From Spirochaetales bacterium (GTDB taxonomy: Bacteria > Spirochaetota > Spirochaetia > Treponematales > UBA12059), in contig JAFGNN010000013.1 in assembly GCA_016926955.1 (NCBI GenBank), forward strand, positions 1 to 40,698: DNA of 40,698 bases, given 5' to 3'. The notes under the pieces are model-generated. The model saw only the letters and a program-made list of their open reading frames with translations. It did not search any database and was not told the origin of the DNA. Shown here in pieces: positions 4,181-27,358 of this stretch (the stretch's first letter is position 1; each line of letters opens with the position of its first letter). The translations under genes and the position numbers were made by a program.

Positions 4181-5971
4181 ATGGCGTTCGTAGACGTCCG
4201 CGGGCTGTTCCACCGCTACCCGGGTTCGCCCGTCCATTCCCTGTCCGACGTATCCTTCCAGGTCCAGCCGGGCGAGTACCTGGCCGTGCTCGGCGCCAAC
4301 GGCTCCGGCAAGAGCACCCTCGTGCGCTGCCTCGACGGTCTCGCCGAGATCGAAAGCGGCACGGTGCTCGTCGGCGGGCTCGACCCCATGAACGCGGAGC
4401 AGCTCGCGGACTTGCGTTCGCGCGTCGGCCTCGTCTTCCAGTCGCCCGCCGACCAGCTGGTCGCCTCCGTAGTCGAGGAGGACTGCGCCTTCGGTCCCGA
4501 GAACCTCGGCCTGCCGCGGGAGGAGATCGCTCGACGGGTCGCCTCGGCCCTGGAAGCGGCAGGCTTGCAGGCGGAACGCTCCCGGCCCGCCTGGGCCCTG
4601 TCCGCGGGCCAGCAGCAGCGCCTCGCTGTCGCCGGCGCGCTCGCCCTCGAACCCGAGCTGCTGCTCCTCGACGAAGCCACCGCCATGATCGATCCGCCCG
4701 GACGCACGGGTTTCCTCGACCTGATAGGACGCCTCAACTCAGACGGCACGACGGTCATCCACGTCACCCATTCCATGGAAGAAGTCCTTCGCGCGGGCCG
4801 CGCCCTGGTCCTGCATGAAGGTCGCCTCGTGTTCGACGGAACGCCCGCGGACCTGTTCGAGCGGCCCGGGCTGGAGTCCTGGTCGCTTTCGCGGCCCGCC
4901 TCGCTGGAAGCGGCGCGTCGCGTCCGCTTTGCGTTTCCGGGGTTCCGGCCCGCCGGCCACGCCCCCGAGGATTTCCGCGACGAACTCTCGCGCCTTGCCC
5001 GGGCTTCGGGGAAGGTTCCGGCGAGCCCGCGCACCGACGTCTCGCTTCCGGCACCCGCCGTTTCCGTCGACCCGCCGCGCGAAGACGACGCGCTCGTTCT
5101 CGACAAGGTCGCGCACGAGTACCTGGGCGGCACCGAGCTCTCGAGGCTCGCGCTCGACGGCGTCTCGCTCCGCGTCGGGAAGGGCGAGCTCGTCGCCCTG
5201 GTGGGCGCAACGGGTTCCGGCAAGAGCTCCGCGCTCCAGCACGGAAACGCCCTGCTCGCGCCGTCCTCCGGATCGGCGCGCGTCCTGGGCCTCGACCCCG
5301 CGGCCAAGGGCGTCGACCTCAAGGCCTTGAGGTCGCGGGCGGCCCTGGCCGTCCAGCGGCCCGAGACCGCCCTCTTCGAGACCTGCGTCGGCGACGATGT
5401 GGCCTTCGGCCCCCGCAACCAGGGACTGCGGGGCCGTGCGCTCGTGGAGCGGGTCCGCTCGGCCATGGCGCGGGTCAATTTGCCGTACGCGGATTTCCGC
5501 GACCGCCCGGTCCGCGCGCTCTCGGGCGGCGAGAAGCGCCGCGCTGCCATGGCCGGGGTTCTGGCCCTCGATCCCGAGCTTCTGCTGCTGGACGAACCCT
5601 GCGCGGGACTCGACCCGGCGGGCCGCGAGTCGGCGCTGGCGCTTCAGGCCGCGCTGAGTTCGGACGGCCGGACGGTGGCCGTTTCGACCCACTCGATGGA
5701 GGACGCGACGCGGGCGGACCGCGTGTACGTCCTCGAGCGGGGCAGGGTTGTAGCCGAAGGGAGCTCGGCGGAAGTCTTCCTCGGGACCGAGCCGCCGCCC
5801 GGGCTCGAACGGCCTTGGGCCGCTGAAGCGTCCGTGCTGATGTGGCGCGCCGGGCTCACTGACGCCCCGACCGCCCTCGACGCCGCGGCGTTGGCCGACG
5901 AGGCGCTGGCCGTACTCGGTGTCGCGCCTCCGGGCGGCGTCCCGCGCGGGGGGCTGGAGGCGGCGCCGTGA
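4181..5971 (+). CDS. ecfA: ECF transporter ATPase, two ABC domains fused (EcfA-EcfA')
   Basis: A 596-residue energising ATPase of an energy-coupling-factor vitamin importer, located on the cytoplasmic face. Two complete ABC domains lie in tandem. The first has Walker A GANGSGKST (38-46), Q-loop VFQSPADQ, signature LSAGQQQR (from 140) and Walker B LLLLDEATAMIDP. The second has Walker A GATGSGKSS (342-350), Q-loop AVQRPETALFE, signature LSGGEKRR (from 447) and LLLLDEPCAGLDP. Most ECF systems use two separate subunits; here one chain supplies both, joined by a linker at about residues 235-310. The stop codon overlaps the GTG start of ecfT. The C-terminal 50 residues are Ala/Pro-rich and outside the ABC fold. 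Confidence 0.93.
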   Translation: MAFVDVRGLFHRYPGSPVHSLSDVSFQVQPGEYLAVLGANGSGKSTLVRCLDGLAEIESGTVLVGGLDPMNAEQLADLRSRVGLVFQSPADQLVASVVEEDCAFGPENLGLPREEIARRVASALEAAGLQAERSRPAWALSAGQQQRLAVAGALALEPELLLLDEATAMIDPPGRTGFLDLIGRLNSDGTTVIHVTHSMEEVLRAGRALVLHEGRLVFDGTPADLFERPGLESWSLSRPASLEAARRVRFAFPGFRPAGHAPEDFRDELSRLARASGKVPASPRTDVSLPAPAVSVDPPREDDALVLDKVAHEYLGGTELSRLALDGVSLRVGKGELVALVGATGSGKSSALQHGNALLAPSSGSARVLGLDPAAKGVDLKALRSRAALAVQRPETALFETCVGDDVAFGPRNQGLRGRALVERVRSAMARVNLPYADFRDRPVRALSGGEKRRAAMAGVLALDPELLLLDEPCAGLDPAGRESALALQAALSSDGRTVAVSTHSMEDATRADRVYVLERGRVVAEGSSAEVFLGTEPPPGLERPWAAEASVLMWRAGLTDAPTALDAAALADEALAVLGVAPPGGVPRGGLEAAP

Positions 5972-6822
5972 AGGACCTCGAATTCTTCCGCAACGCCACC
6001 CTCGGGCAGTATGTCGACTCCCATTCGCGTGTGCACGCGCTTGCGCCGCTCACCAAGTACCTTGGCCTCTTCGCGCTGGCTGCGCCGGCCCTCGCGTCTC
6101 GCCCCGCCTACGCGGCCCTTGCCGTCATGGCGCTGGGCCTCCTCGTCGCTCTGGCGGCGAAGGTGCGGCCGGCCTTCCTGCTCCGCGGACTCAAGCCCGC
6201 GCTCCCTGCCCTGGCCCTCATCATGGCGCTTCAGGTGCTGCTCTCCTGGCCCGGCGACGAGAGCGCGGTGCTGCTCCGCCTCGGCCCGATCGACGTGACG
6301 CTGGCCGAGCTCGCGAACTCCGCGCGTATCGCGGCGCGGCTCGCGGCGCTCATGGTGACGCTCGGGCTCTTCACCGCCACGGCATCCGAGAGCCAGATCG
6401 TCCACGGCATCGAGGACATCCTCTCGCCGCTTTCGCGGCTCGGCATTCCGGCGCACCGGCTCGCGCTCGTGGTCGGCATCGCCTTCCGCTTCATACCGAT
6501 CCTGGCGGGCGAGGCCGAGCTCATCGTCAAGGCGCAGGCCTCGCGCGGCGCGGACTTCGGATCCGGCACGCGGAACCCGGTCAGGCGCGTGAAGGCCTGG
6601 CTGCCTGTGCTGGTGCCTCTCATGCTGCGCGCCCTCGAGCGCTCGGAGTCGCTGGTCGAGGCTATGGAGGCCCGCGGGTATTCCGGCGGTCTCCGCTCGC
6701 GCCTCGCGTCCTATCCGGTCGGATCGGGCGAAAAGGCGCTCCGCGCCGGCCTCGTCCTGTTCGCCGTCGTCTCGGTAATCCTGGTCTCGAGGGCGCCGTC
6801 GCCCTTCGGAACCTGGCTCTGA
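5968..6822 (+). CDS. ecfT: ECF transporter transmembrane coupling protein EcfT
   Basis: A 284-residue CbiQ/EcfT-family membrane protein. Several hydrophobic segments lie in the N-terminal half. The two coupling-helix motifs that dock into the ATPase grooves are both present: QASRG (Ser192-Arg193-Gly194) and EARGY (Ala235-Arg236-Gly237). It starts with GTG overlapping the ecfA stop (GTGA), with GGAGG upstream inside ecfA, so the two are translationally coupled. It links the double ATPase to the substrate-binding S component encoded next. A final hydrophobic helix closes the protein. Confidence 0.9.
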   Translation: MKDLEFFRNATLGQYVDSHSRVHALAPLTKYLGLFALAAPALASRPAYAALAVMALGLLVALAAKVRPAFLLRGLKPALPALALIMALQVLLSWPGDESAVLLRLGPIDVTLAELANSARIAARLAALMVTLGLFTATASESQIVHGIEDILSPLSRLGIPAHRLALVVGIAFRFIPILAGEAELIVKAQASRGADFGSGTRNPVRRVKAWLPVLVPLMLRALERSESLVEAMEARGYSGGLRSRLASYPVGSGEKALRAGLVLFAVVSVILVSRAPSPFGTWL

Positions 6823-6848
6823 CACATCGCAATTAAAGGAGCAATGTC

Positions 6849-7424
6849 GTGAAGAAGTCCGTCGTCCGCAAGATCGTCGTGGCGGGAGTGCTCTCCGCCG
6901 TCGCCGCCTTCCTCGGCCTGACCCGGCTCGGCTACATCCCGTGGTTCTCCGGGGCCTCGCTCACCGTCATGCACGTGCCGGCCATCGTCGGCGCGGTGCT
7001 CGAGGGACCGATCGTCGGCGCCGTCATCGGCCTGGTGTTCGGCCTCACGAGCCTGCTGCAGGCGGCCATCGCGCCGACGGGGCCGCTCGATCCGGCCTTC
7101 GTCAATCCGCTCATCTCGGTGCTGCCGCGCCTGCTCGTGGGACCGGCGGCCTTCCTCGCCTACGCCGCCTTCCGCGGCAAGCTGGAAATCCCGGCGCTCG
7201 GGCTTTCCGGCATAGTCGGCAGCCTCGTGAACACAATGCTGGTGGTGGCGGCTCTCGCGCTGTTCGGCTTCCTGACCTGGGACCTCTTCTGGCCGGTCGT
7301 CACGGCGAACGGGCTTCCGGAGGCCGGCGCCGCCGCCATCGTCAACGTGGCCGTCGTGGCCGCCTGGAAGGGCGTCGCCCGAAGGGGCGGCAAGGCCTCG
7401 ATCGCCGCCGAAGAGGACAGGTAG
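6849..7424 (+). CDS. ECF transporter substrate-specificity (S) component
   Basis: A 191-residue membrane protein with about six hydrophobic segments. It shows the ECF_trnsprt-type motifs in the first half: MHVPAIVGAVLEGPIVG, then GLVFGLTSLLQA, then PLISVLPRLLVGP. It captures the vitamin in the membrane and hands it to the EcfT/EcfA module. GTG at 6849 is used: AAAGGAG (6836-6842) lies upstream, while the nearby ATG at 6844 hits a stop after two codons. The substrate is inferred only from context: the next gene, 2 bases downstream, is a CoaX homologue, so pantothenate or a related precursor is the first guess. Riboflavin, biotin or another vitamin cannot be excluded. Confidence 0.85.
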   Translation: MKKSVVRKIVVAGVLSAVAAFLGLTRLGYIPWFSGASLTVMHVPAIVGAVLEGPIVGAVIGLVFGLTSLLQAAIAPTGPLDPAFVNPLISVLPRLLVGPAAFLAYAAFRGKLEIPALGLSGIVGSLVNTMLVVAALALFGFLTWDLFWPVVTANGLPEAGAAAIVNVAVVAAWKGVARRGGKASIAAEEDR

Positions 7425-7426
7425 CC

Positions 7427-8260
7427 GTGCTCCTCGCGCTGGACGCCCGCAACGCCTCGATCTCCGTCGGCGCCTGGCGCGAGGGCGGCGCGGCAGGTCC
7501 CGTCCGCTTCCGGCTCGGGGCCGGCGCCTCGCGCAGCGCCGACGAGTGGGCCTACGCGCTCGATTCGATGCTGCGCGCCGGGGGAGTCGAGCCGTCGCTC
7601 GTCGATCGGGTCGTCCTCTCGTGCGTGGTGCCGAGCCTCAGCTCCCGGCTCCTCGGGGCCTGCTCGAAGGCGTTCGCCCTCGAGCCGCTGGTCGTGGGGC
7701 CCGGCGTGCGCAACGGGCTCAAGATCCGCACCGACTCGCCCTCGGAGCTCGGCTCGGACCTGGTCTGCGACGCCGTGGCCGCACGCGAATTGATGGCAGC
7801 GCGCGGCCTCGACGGGCATCCCTGCGTCGTCGTCGACTTCGGCTCCGCCATCGCCTTCTCGGCGCTGTCCGCCTCGGGCGAGTACCTGGGCGCCTCGATA
7901 GCCCCGGGGCCCGAGCTGGCCTCGCTGGCCCTATCGCGCGGGGCGGCGCTACTGCCCGAAGCCCGCTTCGAGGCGAGCACGCGCGCCATCGGCAGGAACA
8001 CCGCGGACGCCATGCGCTCGGGCCTCGCGCTGGGCTTCGCGGGCCTCGTGGACCGCGTGGTGGAGCGCATGGCCGCCGAGCTCGGCGAGCCCTGCCTGGT
8101 GGTGGGCTCCGGCGAGGAATACGGCCGCCTGCTGGAACCGGTTCGGGGCTACCTTTCCTTCGAGCCGGACCTGGCCCTGGAGGGCCTGCGCGCCATCGCG
8201 GCGCTCAACCCGGCCGGAGCGGCAAATCCCGGCGGAACGGGCGGGGATCCGCGAGGCTGA
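7427..8260 (+). CDS. coaX: Type III pantothenate kinase homologue (CoaX-like) with altered active-site motifs
   Basis: A 277-residue member of the ASKHA fold. The CoaX plan is recognisable: N-terminal LLALDARNAS, middle GSDLVCDAVAA, VVVDFGSAIAF, then ASIAPG and the later IGRNTADAMRSGLALGF. Asp6, Asp111 and Asp137 are kept. Several positions that are near-invariant in active CoaX differ: DxGNT reads DARNA, GxDR reads GSDL, and DFGTATT reads DFGSAIA. CoaX phosphorylates pantothenate in CoA synthesis; this copy may have lost or changed that activity. The GTG start lies 2 bases after the S-component stop, with AGAGGACAGG upstream. It is the last gene of the ECF operon. Confidence 0.75.
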   Translation: MLLALDARNASISVGAWREGGAAGPVRFRLGAGASRSADEWAYALDSMLRAGGVEPSLVDRVVLSCVVPSLSSRLLGACSKAFALEPLVVGPGVRNGLKIRTDSPSELGSDLVCDAVAARELMAARGLDGHPCVVVDFGSAIAFSALSASGEYLGASIAPGPELASLALSRGAALLPEARFEASTRAIGRNTADAMRSGLALGFAGLVDRVVERMAAELGEPCLVVGSGEEYGRLLEPVRGYLSFEPDLALEGLRAIAALNPAGAANPGGTGGDPRG

Positions 8261-23767: not shown

Positions 23768-24508
23768 GTGGAAAGCGAGTTCCAGGCAATTCGGGAAGAG
23801 CTCTACGCGCGGATCCTGGCGGCCCGTCCGAAAGAGGCCGGAGCTATCGTGTCGGAACAGCTGGAACGGCATGGGGCCCAGGCCGTGCTTGCCCGGGTGC
23901 TCGGGCCAGTGCTCGCCTCGATCGGGGAGCGCTGGAGCCATGACCGCATCTCCCTGGCCGTGGCCTATGTGGCCGGAAGGGTGGCGGAGGACGCCATCGA
24001 GGCCATCATGGCGGGCGCCGGGGCCGACGGCGAGGCGATCGCGGGGACGGGACGGATCGCGGATCCGGCGAAAGTCGCCGTGATCGGCAATGCCGAGGAC
24101 GACTACCACGGCCTCGGCCGACGCATGGTCGCGGCCTTCCTGCGCGTGGCCGGCTGGAACGTGGTCGACCTCGGATACGACGTGCTCCCCGCCGATTTCG
24201 TCGATGCCGCGCTTGCCGGAGGGGCCCGGGTCATCGGCGTTTCCGCGATGATGCTGACCAACGCGGAGAACATCCGCCGGGTGCGCGAGGAGATCGAGCG
24301 GCGCAACCTTTCCGGCCGGCTCAAGCTGGCGGTCGGCGGCGCGGTCTTCGTCATGCGGCCCGAGCTGGTGGCCGAGGTCGGCGGTGACGGAACCTCGGCC
24401 ACGGCCATGGAGGCGCCCGCCCTGTTCGAGCGTCTCGCGGCGGAGGCGGCGGAAGTCGAAGCCGAGGCGGGGGGCGGCGGGGGCGGTCCCGGAGGAGGCG
24501 CCGCGTGA
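23768..24508 (+). CDS. Corrinoid (B12)-binding protein, MtaC/MtbC type
   Basis: A 246-residue cytoplasmic protein. Residues about 1-95 match the helical B12-binding_2 cap. The Rossmann B12-binding domain then shows DYHGLG, the DxHxxG motif (Asp112, His114, Gly117), where His114 is the lower cobalt ligand. It is followed by the helper motifs GYDVLPADF, VIGVSAMMLTN and KLAVGGAVF. Such proteins carry a methyl group between two methyltransferases. The C-terminus ends in a Glu-rich helix and a Gly-rich tail. GTG start with GGGAGGAG upstream. Its stop overlaps the next start (GTGA). No MtaB/MttB-type substrate methyltransferase is next to it. Confidence 0.92.
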   Translation: MESEFQAIREELYARILAARPKEAGAIVSEQLERHGAQAVLARVLGPVLASIGERWSHDRISLAVAYVAGRVAEDAIEAIMAGAGADGEAIAGTGRIADPAKVAVIGNAEDDYHGLGRRMVAAFLRVAGWNVVDLGYDVLPADFVDAALAGGARVIGVSAMMLTNAENIRRVREEIERRNLSGRLKLAVGGAVFVMRPELVAEVGGDGTSATAMEAPALFERLAAEAAEVEAEAGGGGGGPGGGAA

Positions 24509-25530
24509 CGGGCAGCGAACGGATAGGGGCGGCGCTCCGGGGGGATTTCTCCGACCGGCGCGCCTTCACCATGACCCTCTCGCTCTACGGGGCGCGGCTC
24601 TCGGGCAGCCGGCCCGGAGACTACTACCGGGAGAGCGCCCTCTATCACCGCGGGCAGGCTGAGGTCGCCGCGCTCGTCGATCCGGACGTCCTCTTCGGAC
24701 CCTTCGCCATGCCCCTCGAGGCGGAGGCCTGGGGCGCGAGCCTGGTCTGGACCGACAAGGCGCCGCCCAATGTCGGCAAGCCGCTCCGCTCGGCGGCTTC
24801 CTTCCTCGAACGCGAGGCGCCCCGACCTGACTCGGATCCGCGCCTGTCATATCTCGTCGAGTCCGTCCGGCTCGTCGCGGCCGACAACGCGGATACCCGG
24901 CCCGTCGCGGCGGTGGCGACCAGCCCCTCGGACCTGCCGGCGATGGCGCTCGGCATCGACGCGTGGCTCGAGATCCTGCTCTTCGACCCCGGCCTGGCAG
25001 ATCGCGTGCTCGAGCGCTCGGGCGAGCATTTCAGGGCGCTGTGCGCGGCCTACGCTGCCGCGGGCGCCGCCTTCGTCGCCGTGCCGGTCATGTTCGCCAA
25101 TCCGCGCATAGTCACAGAGGGCATAGTCCGCGAGCGGATAGCGCCGTACCTGGCGCGCGAGTTCGGCGCGGCGGGGCTTCCGGTAGTGTTCCACCATGGC
25201 GCGAACCCGCTGGCGGAGTACCTGCCGCTCTTTGCCGGGCTGCCGGGCGTCGCCGGCTTCGCGCTGGCCGAGCGCGACGATCTGGGCGCGGCCCGCGCCG
25301 CGCTCGGTCAAGGCGCCCTGATTCTGGGCGGGGTGGAGGGACCCACGATAGCACGGCGCCCGCTCGGGCGTGTCCTCGAGGTGGCGCGCTCGGTTCTGCG
25401 GGACCGCGCGGCCGACCCCCGCTTCGTGTTCGCCACGGCATCCGCCGACGTCCCCTGGGACACCGATCCGGAGAACCTCGCGGCGCTGGCGCGGACTGTC
25501 CGGGAAGCGGAGCTCGCGCGTGCCTCGTGA
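24505..25530 (+). CDS. UroD-fold methyltransferase (MtaA/CmuA-like) without the usual zinc cysteines
   Basis: A 341-residue TIM-barrel protein of the uroporphyrinogen-decarboxylase-like superfamily. The MtaA/MtbA group transfers methyl from a methyl-corrinoid protein to a thiol or another acceptor. Recognisable parts are VDPDVLFGPFAMPLEAEAWG, the central PSDLPAMALGIDAWLEILLFDP, VVFHHGANPLAEYLPLF and DTDPENLAALARTVREA. In zinc-dependent MtaA the motifs are HxCG and, near the C-terminus, GCxxP. Here these read HHGA and ASADVP, and I count a single Cys (in RALCAAY) in the protein. CoM-type activation is therefore unlikely. Both ends overlap neighbours (GTGA with the corrinoid gene; 11 bases with the kinase). 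Confidence 0.85.
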   Translation: MTGSERIGAALRGDFSDRRAFTMTLSLYGARLSGSRPGDYYRESALYHRGQAEVAALVDPDVLFGPFAMPLEAEAWGASLVWTDKAPPNVGKPLRSAASFLEREAPRPDSDPRLSYLVESVRLVAADNADTRPVAAVATSPSDLPAMALGIDAWLEILLFDPGLADRVLERSGEHFRALCAAYAAAGAAFVAVPVMFANPRIVTEGIVRERIAPYLAREFGAAGLPVVFHHGANPLAEYLPLFAGLPGVAGFALAERDDLGAARAALGQGALILGGVEGPTIARRPLGRVLEVARSVLRDRAADPRFVFATASADVPWDTDPENLAALARTVREAELARAS

Positions 25531-27358
25531 GAAGGCGCGGACCAAGCTCCTGGCCTGCGGTATCTTCGCGCGCGAGTACGGCCTGCTGGACGCGGCGCTC
25601 CGCGCGCGCTTCGAACCCGTGTTTGTCGACTCGATGCTTCACATGCACCCGGACCGGCTCGGCGAGACCCTTGACGGGCTTCTGGCCGCGGCGGGCGACG
25701 CCCCGGCGGTGGGCCTCTTCGGCGACTGCTGTCCGCGCTCGCGCGAGCTCTTCTCGGGTCCGGCCCGAGCCCGGGTAGCCTGCGTCAACTGCGTCGAGCT
25801 CGCGCTCGGACGAGAGCGCTACCGCGAGCTGCGCAAGGCCCGCACCTTCTTTTTCATGCCGGAGTGGGCCGAGCGCTGGGAAGAGGTGTTCGCGCGCGAG
25901 CTGGGTCTCGGCGACCCGGAACTCGCGCGAGACTTCCTGCAAGACGAGATGAGCCAGATCGTCTACGTCGACACGGGTGTCGTGCCCGTGCCGGAGGCGA
26001 CGCTCGCGGAAATCGAGGCGCGCTTCGGCTTGCCGGTCCGGATCGAGCGCTCCGACCCGGGAGCCCTCGAATCCGCGCTCAGGACCGCGCTCGACAAGGT
26101 GGACGGAGTGGACCGCGCGGAAAGCGCGGATGGGAGGGCGGCAGACGCCGGAGACGAAGCGGCCTCCCGGGAATCCGGGCCGCCGGGCGCCGGCAGCGCG
26201 GAGGGCGGGGCCTTCGAATTCCTGTTTTCCGACCTCGTGGAACGGACCATGTCGCTGGCCGACCGGCCCGCCGATTGCCTGGCCTTCATCGCGCACGAGC
26301 TTCGCCAGCTCGTCGGGGTCAGGACCATCTTCGTCTACGCTGATCCCGGTCCGGATCCCGGCCGTTCGCCGGAACTCGCCCTGCTCGCGGCCCTTCCGGA
26401 GCGCAGGCGCACCATCGGCGAGGGCGGGCGCCTGCTCGAAATCGCCGCCATCGCCCGGTCGGGCGGGGAGCCCTTCTTCATCAGGCCGGGGGACGGGACC
26501 CGCGCGGGCAGCCTGCTCGCTGAGCTCGGCGTCGGCGAATCGCTGGCGCTGCCGCTGCGCTACGCGGGGAACGCCGTCGGCGCGATCCTGCTCTTGGACC
26601 TGCTCGACAAGGCGAACCTCGGCACGGTCATCGACACGCTTGGCCGCCTGTCTTCGGTGCTGGCCCTGATCATCCGCACCGCGCGGCTCTACGGGAACCT
26701 CGAGGCGGCGGTGGCGGAGCGCACGCGCGAGATCGAGGTCCAGCGCGAAGCCGTGGCCGCCTCGCTCCGCGAGAAGGAGGCCATGCTCAAGGAGATCCAC
26801 CACCGCGTCAAGAACAACCTGCAGATCGTCTCGAGCCTGCTCCACCTCAAGATGGGCACGCTCGACGACCCGGCGGTGCGCGAGCTTTTTTCCGAGAGCG
26901 AGAGCCGCATCCGCGCGATGGCCTTGGTGCACGAGGAGCTTTACCGTTCCGGCGATCTCGGCCGGGTCGAGATTTCCGACTACATCGAGCGCCTGGCGCG
27001 GAGCCTGGCCGCCGTGGGCGACGTCGAGCTCGACCTGGACGCTGAGCGGGCCGGTTTCCCGATCGACGCGGCGGTGCCCTGCGGGCTTGTGCTCAACGAG
27101 CTCGTGATGAACGCGGTCAAGTACGGGAAGGGCGATCGGGGCACGGTGCGCGTCGGCATACGCTTCGCGCGCCGGGGGGACGAGTTTGTCCTCGAGGTCC
27201 GCGACGACGGCCCGGGCCTGCCTCCGGGCTTCGCGCCGGGAAAGACGGGAGGCGTCGGTCTCTCCATCGTCGAAGCGCTGGCCGGGCAGCTCCGGGGCGA
27301 GCTTCTGATCGGCGAGGGGAAGGGCGCCCGCCTCACGCTGGTATTCCCCGCTCCGTAA
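25520..27358 (+). CDS. DUF1638-GAF-HisKA_2 hybrid histidine kinase
   Basis: A 612-residue cytoplasmic fusion. Residues 1-190 are a DUF1638 domain (LACGIFAREYGLL, GLFGDCCPRSREL, ACVNCVELALG, ARDFLQDEMSQIVYVDTG). Cys13, His41, His43, Cys70, Cys71, Cys88 and Cys91 could bind metal or cofactor. A low-complexity linker (about 195-235) leads to a GAF-like domain (about 240-390). The kinase core has EIHHRVKNNLQIV with His428, N-box LNELVMNAVKYG (Asn531) and G-boxes DDGPGLPPG, GGVGLSIV. GTG 25520 overlaps the methyltransferase end by 11 bases and begins the DUF1638 domain. DUF1638 proteins are, from memory, usually separate and found near corrinoid methyltransferases. Here the domain is the input of a kinase, pointing to sensing of methyl-corrinoid state. 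No receiver protein is nearby. Confidence 0.88.
   Translation: MPREKARTKLLACGIFAREYGLLDAALRARFEPVFVDSMLHMHPDRLGETLDGLLAAAGDAPAVGLFGDCCPRSRELFSGPARARVACVNCVELALGRERYRELRKARTFFFMPEWAERWEEVFARELGLGDPELARDFLQDEMSQIVYVDTGVVPVPEATLAEIEARFGLPVRIERSDPGALESALRTALDKVDGVDRAESADGRAADAGDEAASRESGPPGAGSAEGGAFEFLFSDLVERTMSLADRPADCLAFIAHELRQLVGVRTIFVYADPGPDPGRSPELALLAALPERRRTIGEGGRLLEIAAIARSGGEPFFIRPGDGTRAGSLLAELGVGESLALPLRYAGNAVGAILLLDLLDKANLGTVIDTLGRLSSVLALIIRTARLYGNLEAAVAERTREIEVQREAVAASLREKEAMLKEIHHRVKNNLQIVSSLLHLKMGTLDDPAVRELFSESESRIRAMALVHEELYRSGDLGRVEISDYIERLARSLAAVGDVELDLDAERAGFPIDAAVPCGLVLNELVMNAVKYGKGDRGTVRVGIRFARRGDEFVLEVRDDGPGLPPGFAPGKTGGVGLSIVEALAGQLRGELLIGEGKGARLTLVFPAP

Follow-up and report, generated by a model that had tools for sequence, protein, structure and literature searches.

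Conserved clustering of a corrinoid protein, a UroD-family protein and DUF1638 with diverse histidine kinases suggests a candidate methyl-corrinoid sensor

We analyzed a 40,698-nucleotide contig (JAFGNN010000013.1, referred to here as the window) of a Spirochaetales bacterium, whose genome (GCA_016926955.1, our genome G000, in which the window is contig C89) comprises 3.38 Mb in 94 contigs and is 98.08% complete. Positions 23768 to 27358 of the forward strand harbor three genes that encode a corrinoid protein, a UroD-family protein resembling the methyltransferase MtaA, and a DUF1638-GAF-HisKA_2 sensor kinase, with overlaps of 4 and 11 bases between successive reading frames. The 246-residue corrinoid protein (GTG at 23768 to TGA at 24508) consists of a B12-binding_2 cap (Pfam, 8.6e-7) and a B12-binding domain (3.1e-22), with the DxHxxG cobalt-ligand motif present as DYHGLG (24101 to 24118). 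Its stop codon shares the bases GTGA with the start of the second gene (GTG at 24505 to TGA at 25530), the 341-residue product of which matches Pfam URO-D (2.7e-35) and carries HHG where MtaA has HxC. The third gene (GTG at 25520 to TAA at 27358), which accounts for the 11-base overlap, encodes a 612-residue DUF1638-GAF-HisKA_2-HATPase protein without a receiver domain, as assigned from Pfam and a structural model. DUF1638 (25622 to 26077; 7.7e-19, 68.6 bits against a curated cut-off of 27 for PF07796) is followed by a divergent GAF domain (residues 226–403, 26195 to 26728), which falls under the Pfam cut-off by sequence (E 0.006) yet is clear in the predicted structure, and then by HisKA_2 (26792 to 27010; 2.7e-28) with the phospho-acceptor box HHRVKNN and by HATPase_c (27086 to 27352; 2e-13) with the N box NELVMNA and the G boxes DDGPG and GVGL, both matches lying above cut-off. 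Having both the His box and the ATPase N and G boxes, this protein is classed as a HisKA_2 sensor kinase. A first-pass annotation, made from the letters of the window, had described this cluster, its domains and overlaps, and had called the third product a signaling kinase; the reading frames, Pfam and (for GAF) the predicted structure bear out the former, and the intact phospho-acceptor His and ATPase boxes bear out the latter. The genes flanking the module in the window are YchF and UvrA.

To place this cluster in a wider context, genome contigs were scanned by profile search using an alignment of five module DUF1638s, which returned 57 loci, mostly from metagenome bins (loci and genomes are given L and G numbers). 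The corrinoid protein, UroD protein, DUF1638 and kinase are encoded in this order on one strand in 50 of the 57; the other seven are incomplete through contig ends, and the order is contradicted in none. Markers for the UroD protein, the corrinoid protein and the kinase adjoin DUF1638 in 55, 52 and 55 loci, respectively, each miss falling at a contig end, and an order kept in 50 of 57 loci rules out chance or an annotation artefact. The first-pass annotation had named a kinase occurring mostly without the other two genes as evidence that would tell against it; among the 57 loci, every kinase and every DUF1638 of this clade has the other two genes beside it except at contig ends. The module tree carries the labels of ten NCBI phyla, of which eight are firm (Spirochaetota, Thermodesulfobacteriota, Bacteroidota, Ignavibacteriota, Nitrospirota, Acidobacteriota, Planctomycetota and Bacillota); the Myxococcota and Pseudomonadota labels derive solely from bins with the title Deltaproteobacteria or Proteobacteria bacterium. 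Named strains that carry the module include Geothrix fermentans DSM 14018 and Desulfopila aestuarii DSM 18488. A kinase frame was traced in 54 loci, and it is distinct from the DUF1638 frame in 51 of these and fused to it in three. The fusion is found in a Treponema bin (L078), in L112 and L125 and also in the genus of the window, and in one distant locus (L040) DUF1638 is fused to a PAS-HisKA_2 kinase. Fused DUF1638-kinase genes are therefore a local variant, in the minority, of an operon with four parts. Another joining is seen at L039:945-2465, where UroD and DUF1638 form a single reading frame followed by separate kinase genes. Two further loci are irregular. At L090:13639-16473 the module markers recur as a divergent second set, opposite in strand to the first set on that contig. 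In L035 (genome G341) the minus-strand module corrinoid gene, of which relatives have intact copies, is normal except for one in-frame stop in the cap region that could be a sequence error.

Within the phylum of the window, DUF1638 is present in 32 of 392 sampled Spirochaetota genomes. Reading the context of 40 of the 43 matches revealed ten, in ten different genomes, that lie beside corrinoid and UroD genes, all ten with a kinase marker, so that the neighborhood survey proposed in the first pass finds all four parts together in 10 of the 32 DUF1638 genomes. One DUF1638 outside the module (G245, L065) has a same-strand kinase marker 1.5 kb away, separated from it by other genes, and neither a corrinoid nor a UroD marker. 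The family of the window has the module in five of 11 sampled genomes, as a fusion in G000 and G063 and as separate DUF1638 and GAF-kinase neighbors in G319, G341 and G343. A UroD protein of the window type (E≤1e-20) is found in eight of the 392 genomes, all eight of them module carriers, and the UroD proteins of two further module genomes (G027 and G183) fall under this line. Clustering of neighboring genes reveals no family outside the module that is common to more than seven of the 57 loci, and no conserved regulon was found beside it; the largest clusters (seven loci) come entirely from Holophagaceae or other Acidobacteria bins, followed by clusters of six loci (an ABC-type ATPase and an aldehyde-dehydrogenase-like protein, named by reading) and of four to five (kinase/receiver-like proteins and others). 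In genome G015, hgcA and hgcB (NCBIfam, above cut-off) lie directly upstream of the module on the same strand (L045:11716-13205, the same locus as L109); HgcA/HgcB markers match L109 alone among the 57 loci, and a link to mercury methylation was set aside.

The corrinoid and UroD proteins retain features of methyl-transfer systems. The nearest NCBIfam models of the window corrinoid protein are corrinoid proteins of methyltransferases, all under cut-off, and its PDB matches include 1y80, 7xcn and 3ezx, with CarH chains among the distant ones. The Asp, His and Gly of DxHxxG are kept in all 54 module corrinoid proteins with a filled column (55 aligned), and SAMM and GGA hardly vary. The window UroD protein, modeled with high confidence (AF2 pLDDT 96.1), is closest to MtaA (4ay7) both by sequence profile (3.5e-21) and by fold (TM 0.83, the best match), and shares with MtaA, CmuA and CdmB the partnership with a corrinoid protein. 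The zinc motif of MtaA is HxC, found as VLHICGN in 4ay7. At this position the His is retained in 57 of 58 module UroD proteins (H230), and the Cys is present in none and replaced by Gly in 55, which, together with the lack of a second methyltransferase and of an activase among the module genes, sets these proteins apart from MtaA, CmuA and CdmB. With the HxC Cys missing from all 58 sequences, these proteins are not expected to form a thiol zinc site like that of MtaA, and a different zinc arrangement is possible in some members. R6, G29, G50-Q51, D61, G77 and P88 are invariant. CdmB is a zinc-free, UroD-family chloromethane methyltransferase that is itself a substrate methyltransferase (PMC13222342), and by this analogy the module UroD protein may be a substrate enzyme; the earlier statement that no substrate methyltransferase is encoded here is therefore unsafe.

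DUF1638 is likewise well conserved. In a tree built by a quick method, which warned of long branches, 58 module rows group in a single clade (SH-aLRT 97), with 25 of 30 non-module rows across a strong branch and five between; the module rows L039 and L040 make up a second small branch. Within the module clade, C13 and H41 are conserved in 57/57 and C70 and C91 in 58/58 sequences; the three Cys are found in 30/30 and H41 in 28/30 non-module rows. These are the family-invariant residues of the window kinase, where the C13 codon (25556-25558) lies just beyond the Pfam match. A model of kinase residues 1–412, in which the DUF1638 region is modeled with confidence, places C13, H41 and C70 where successive strands (8–13, 31–36 and 63–66) end on their C-terminal side or shortly beyond, with C91 at the start of a helix, and these residues may form a shared metal or thiol site. 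The fold-match lists for this model are filled by the GAF domain; a DUF1638 sequence profile gave no match in the PDB below E 0.34, and a protein search with kinase residues 1–200, its candidates limited by length and shared words, found nothing beyond the window protein and a pair of close copies. The placement of DUF1638 in the kinase gene in the first-pass annotation holds, and the domain is not a blank, being a known partner of a RamA-like reactivation protein (PMC5764234). In Phaeobacter inhibens the two proteins share a methionine phenotype as genetic partners in B12 reactivation, and the authors say that they have no specific proposal for DUF1638 (PMC5764234); in Ruegeria pomeroyi, both DUF1638 and RamA-like proteins were more abundant on N-osmolytes (PMC12478193). 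As in the module, the P. inhibens gene adjoins a corrinoid protein gene, but its partner is a DUF4445 (RACo-type) activase rather than a histidine kinase (PMC5764234). The Cys set of the module is also found in the 30 non-module DUF1638s of our alignment, outside which the P. inhibens protein lies; the module DUF1638s differ from the RamA partners in forming their own clade. In four non-module proteins of ≈940 residues (L041, L042, L056 and L061), DUF1638 is fused to Hydant_A_N and Hydantoinase_A, and such fusions are perhaps a distinct corrinoid reactivase.

Among 55 kinases (54 loci and the window), Pfam finds HATPase_c in 49, HisKA in 42, HisKA_2 in seven, Response_reg in 37, DUF1638 in four and GAF in six, and a GAF-like region nonetheless aligns nearly gap-free in 55/55; GAF is thus the constant part of the kinase, and the output varies. 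No ferredoxin-like domain and no PocR is found among the 21 families listed for these kinases, and PocR is likewise absent from the window kinase. Four spirochaete loci (L074, L077, L078 and L079) and L046 have a receiver gene after that of the kinase; no receiver is found among the window proteins scanned. The C-terminal core of the window kinase resembles PhyK (NCBIfam, 7.3e-39, under cut-off; PDB match 4r39) and the LOV HisKA_2/HWE kinases, from which the module differs in its DUF1638-GAF sensor half and in the predominance of HisKA (42/55). Elsewhere in the window, positions 899–2011 encode a second HisKA_2/HWE kinase with no recognized sensor domain.

As for methyl-transfer partners, the window genome encodes one DUF1638, no RACo/RamA-type activase and no MTTB (MttB); it also lacks a pterin-type second methyltransferase (MT2), the one Pterin_bind match being dihydropteroate synthase, a search confined to this genome. 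No MTII-type family is found among the window proteins scanned. The view of the first pass that no activase or MttB is linked to the module agrees with these counts and with the absence of RACo or MttB neighbors in close relatives, and the missing RACo, MTTB and pterin-type MT2 weaken the case for an ordinary catabolic cluster. The six B12-binding matches in this genome include one C-terminal domain of a methylmalonyl-CoA mutase. Two proteins have the B12-binding_2 cap, one of them the module protein; the other, on contig C47 (L052:5942-8910, minus strand), carries all four photoreceptor elements (GxxW, EH, GxxH and GxxxP) beside a PAS-GGDEF gene, so that neither is methionine synthase. Similar B12 proteins bearing the signature are encoded next to the module, in divergent orientation, in L034 (with GGDEF) and L035. 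Among Spirochaetota DUF1638 genomes, RACo is present in two of ten module carriers, compared with 20 of the 21 non-module genomes that were examined (p 4.7e-5 by Fisher's test, with no correction for relatedness), and MTTB in eight of 32, none of them among the ten module carriers. In the wide set RACo occurs in 27 of 50 module genomes, and with 2/10 in the phylum sample this indicates that the module neither depends on RamA nor excludes it. Apart from the module, positions 4181–8260 of the window encode an ECF-type transporter (a two-ATPase protein and a CbiQ/EcfT family protein) adjoining a type III pantothenate kinase.

A self-contained corrinoid/UroD/DUF1638 set, its differing kinases and the absence of widely conserved catabolic neighbors together give the module a sensor-like appearance, and a signaling role of some kind is quite probable. 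In a specific mechanism, a small compound would donate a methyl group, which the UroD protein would transfer to the cobalt of the corrinoid protein. The methyl or redox state produced in this way would be detected by DUF1638 and relayed as phosphate by the GAF-kinase, and the module would serve to sense a methyl-donating compound and not to feed on it. DUF1638 would thus have exchanged partners, acting elsewhere with RamA-like proteins or hydantoinase-type ATPases in corrinoid repair, and here with a kinase in reporting. The genes are presumably co-transcribed, and we infer the methyl transfer, the identity of its donor, the reading by DUF1638 and the transfer of the signal; for a methyl-corrinoid two-component sensor with exactly this methyl-donor mechanism we see an even chance. 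The first-pass annotation had arrived at a sensory unit that reads methylation or redox state. This reading is partly supported: the module behaves as a sensory unit, and either state would be the signal by inference. A broader proposal, which we advance tentatively and hold slightly less probable, is that a methyltransferase has turned receptor, with cobalt methylation as the sensing event, DUF1638 as a general reader and exchangeable kinases, in a previously undescribed system spanning at least eight phyla. The literature searched, mostly seen as listings and with most subscription journals outside its coverage, contained no description of the four-part system.

Several observations weigh against a methyl-corrinoid sensor. 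The 57 loci were found with patterns from module DUF1638s and are therefore not a neutral sample of DUF1638, showing the companions of that clade. Distance-matrix correlations across 45 loci are 0.69 for the corrinoid-UroD pair, but for DUF1638 against corrinoid and UroD proteins they are weak (rho 0.30 and 0.26); GAF (0.46 and 0.53) is scarcely ahead of the kinase output (0.38 and 0.45). These matrices, weak and not decisive, neither prove nor exclude inheritance as one unit, and tight co-evolution is unsupported by distances alone. Of the 58 UroD proteins, 15 have a Cys four residues past the conserved His (HxxxC), and in seven a Cys lies toward the barrel's C-terminal end, which would allow another zinc arrangement in some members. 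The absence of catabolic partners from the window genome covers RACo, MTTB and pterin-type MT2, as MtaB, MtmB, MtbB and MtrH were not searched. The 20/21 figure for RACo leaves out a RACo-positive non-module genome whose context was not examined (G222), five genomes from a single family carry part of the weight of the Spirochaetota contrast, and RACo is found in about half of the module genomes of the wide set. The window kinase has no confident receiver partner, the best match in its own genome showing 36% identity, and the same holds for its signal and target. Finally, the kinase of the mec cassette of dichloromethane fermenters can be read as a plain regulator of catabolism (PMC9768040).

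That cassette is the nearest published arrangement. In it, the MecA kinase and MecD receiver are clustered with the MecB corrinoid protein and the UroD-superfamily proteins MecC, MecE and MecI (PMC9768040), so that corrinoid methyltransferases together with a two-component pair have a precedent. The cassette differs from the module in having an MTII (MecF), several further methyltransferases and a PocR kinase, and the available text does not name DUF1638 (PMC9768040); the module combines DUF1638 with GAF and lacks an MTII. Since a kinase and receiver thus occur in a catabolic corrinoid cluster (PMC9768040), it stays conceivable, if unlikely, that the corrinoid, UroD and DUF1638 proteins are a working demethylase controlled by the kinase as a conventional GAF ligand sensor. 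In favor of this, the conserved UroD residues suggest a working pocket, and RACo is found in 27/50 module genomes; the module, however, encodes no second methyltransferase or activase, RACo, MTTB and pterin-type MT2 are all missing from the window genome, widely conserved catabolic neighbors are missing from the 57 loci, and DUF1638-kinase fusions in several lineages tie DUF1638 to signaling. Marginally less probable is a sensor of cobamide or redox status, in which the kinase would read apo/holo or Co(II)/Co(I) states and the UroD protein would hold or present the corrinoid protein, with no specific methyl donor. This would fit the loss of the MtaA-type zinc Cys in 58/58 UroD sequences, the lack of a pterin-type MT2 to reset methyl-cobalt in the window genome, and the company DUF1638 keeps elsewhere with reductive reactivation (PMC5764234), but the many invariant UroD residues seem beyond the needs of a scaffold.

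Two remaining explanations fare considerably worse. The kinase-like protein might be a DUF1638-linked, ATP-dependent reactivase that replaces RamA and does not signal, as the hydantoinase-type ATPase fusions and the absence of RACo from 8/10 spirochaete module genomes would allow; we consider this very unlikely, given an intact His box and HATPase in the window kinase, widespread HisKA/HisKA_2, Response_reg in 37/55, receiver genes that follow in some loci, and no ferredoxin-like domain among the families listed. A B12 photoreceptor of the CarH kind is suggested by a cap and B12 domain beside a signaling protein, by the CarH chains among distant PDB matches, and by the retention in 51 of 54 module corrinoid proteins of GxxW, one element of the published signature GxxW, EH, GxxH and GxxxP (PMC11796333). 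The other elements are found in 0/54 (EH), 1/54 (GxxH) and 14/54 (GxxxP) sequences, and the missing EH pair rules out CarH-like light sensing to the point that we give it almost no weight. The module shares with CarH, AerR and the photocobilins a B12 domain in the service of signaling, and differs from them in lacking EH and GxxH and in having a separate methyltransferase-type protein and a histidine kinase.

Corrinoid methyl transfer has so far been known as metabolism, and DUF1638 has a B12-reactivation phenotype but no assigned function. Carriers among named strains make the system testable. A methyl-corrinoid sensor, if borne out, would let bacteria directly perceive methylated compounds or the condition of their own B12 chemistry, and would account for the association of DUF1638 with activases in one set of genomes and with kinases in another.

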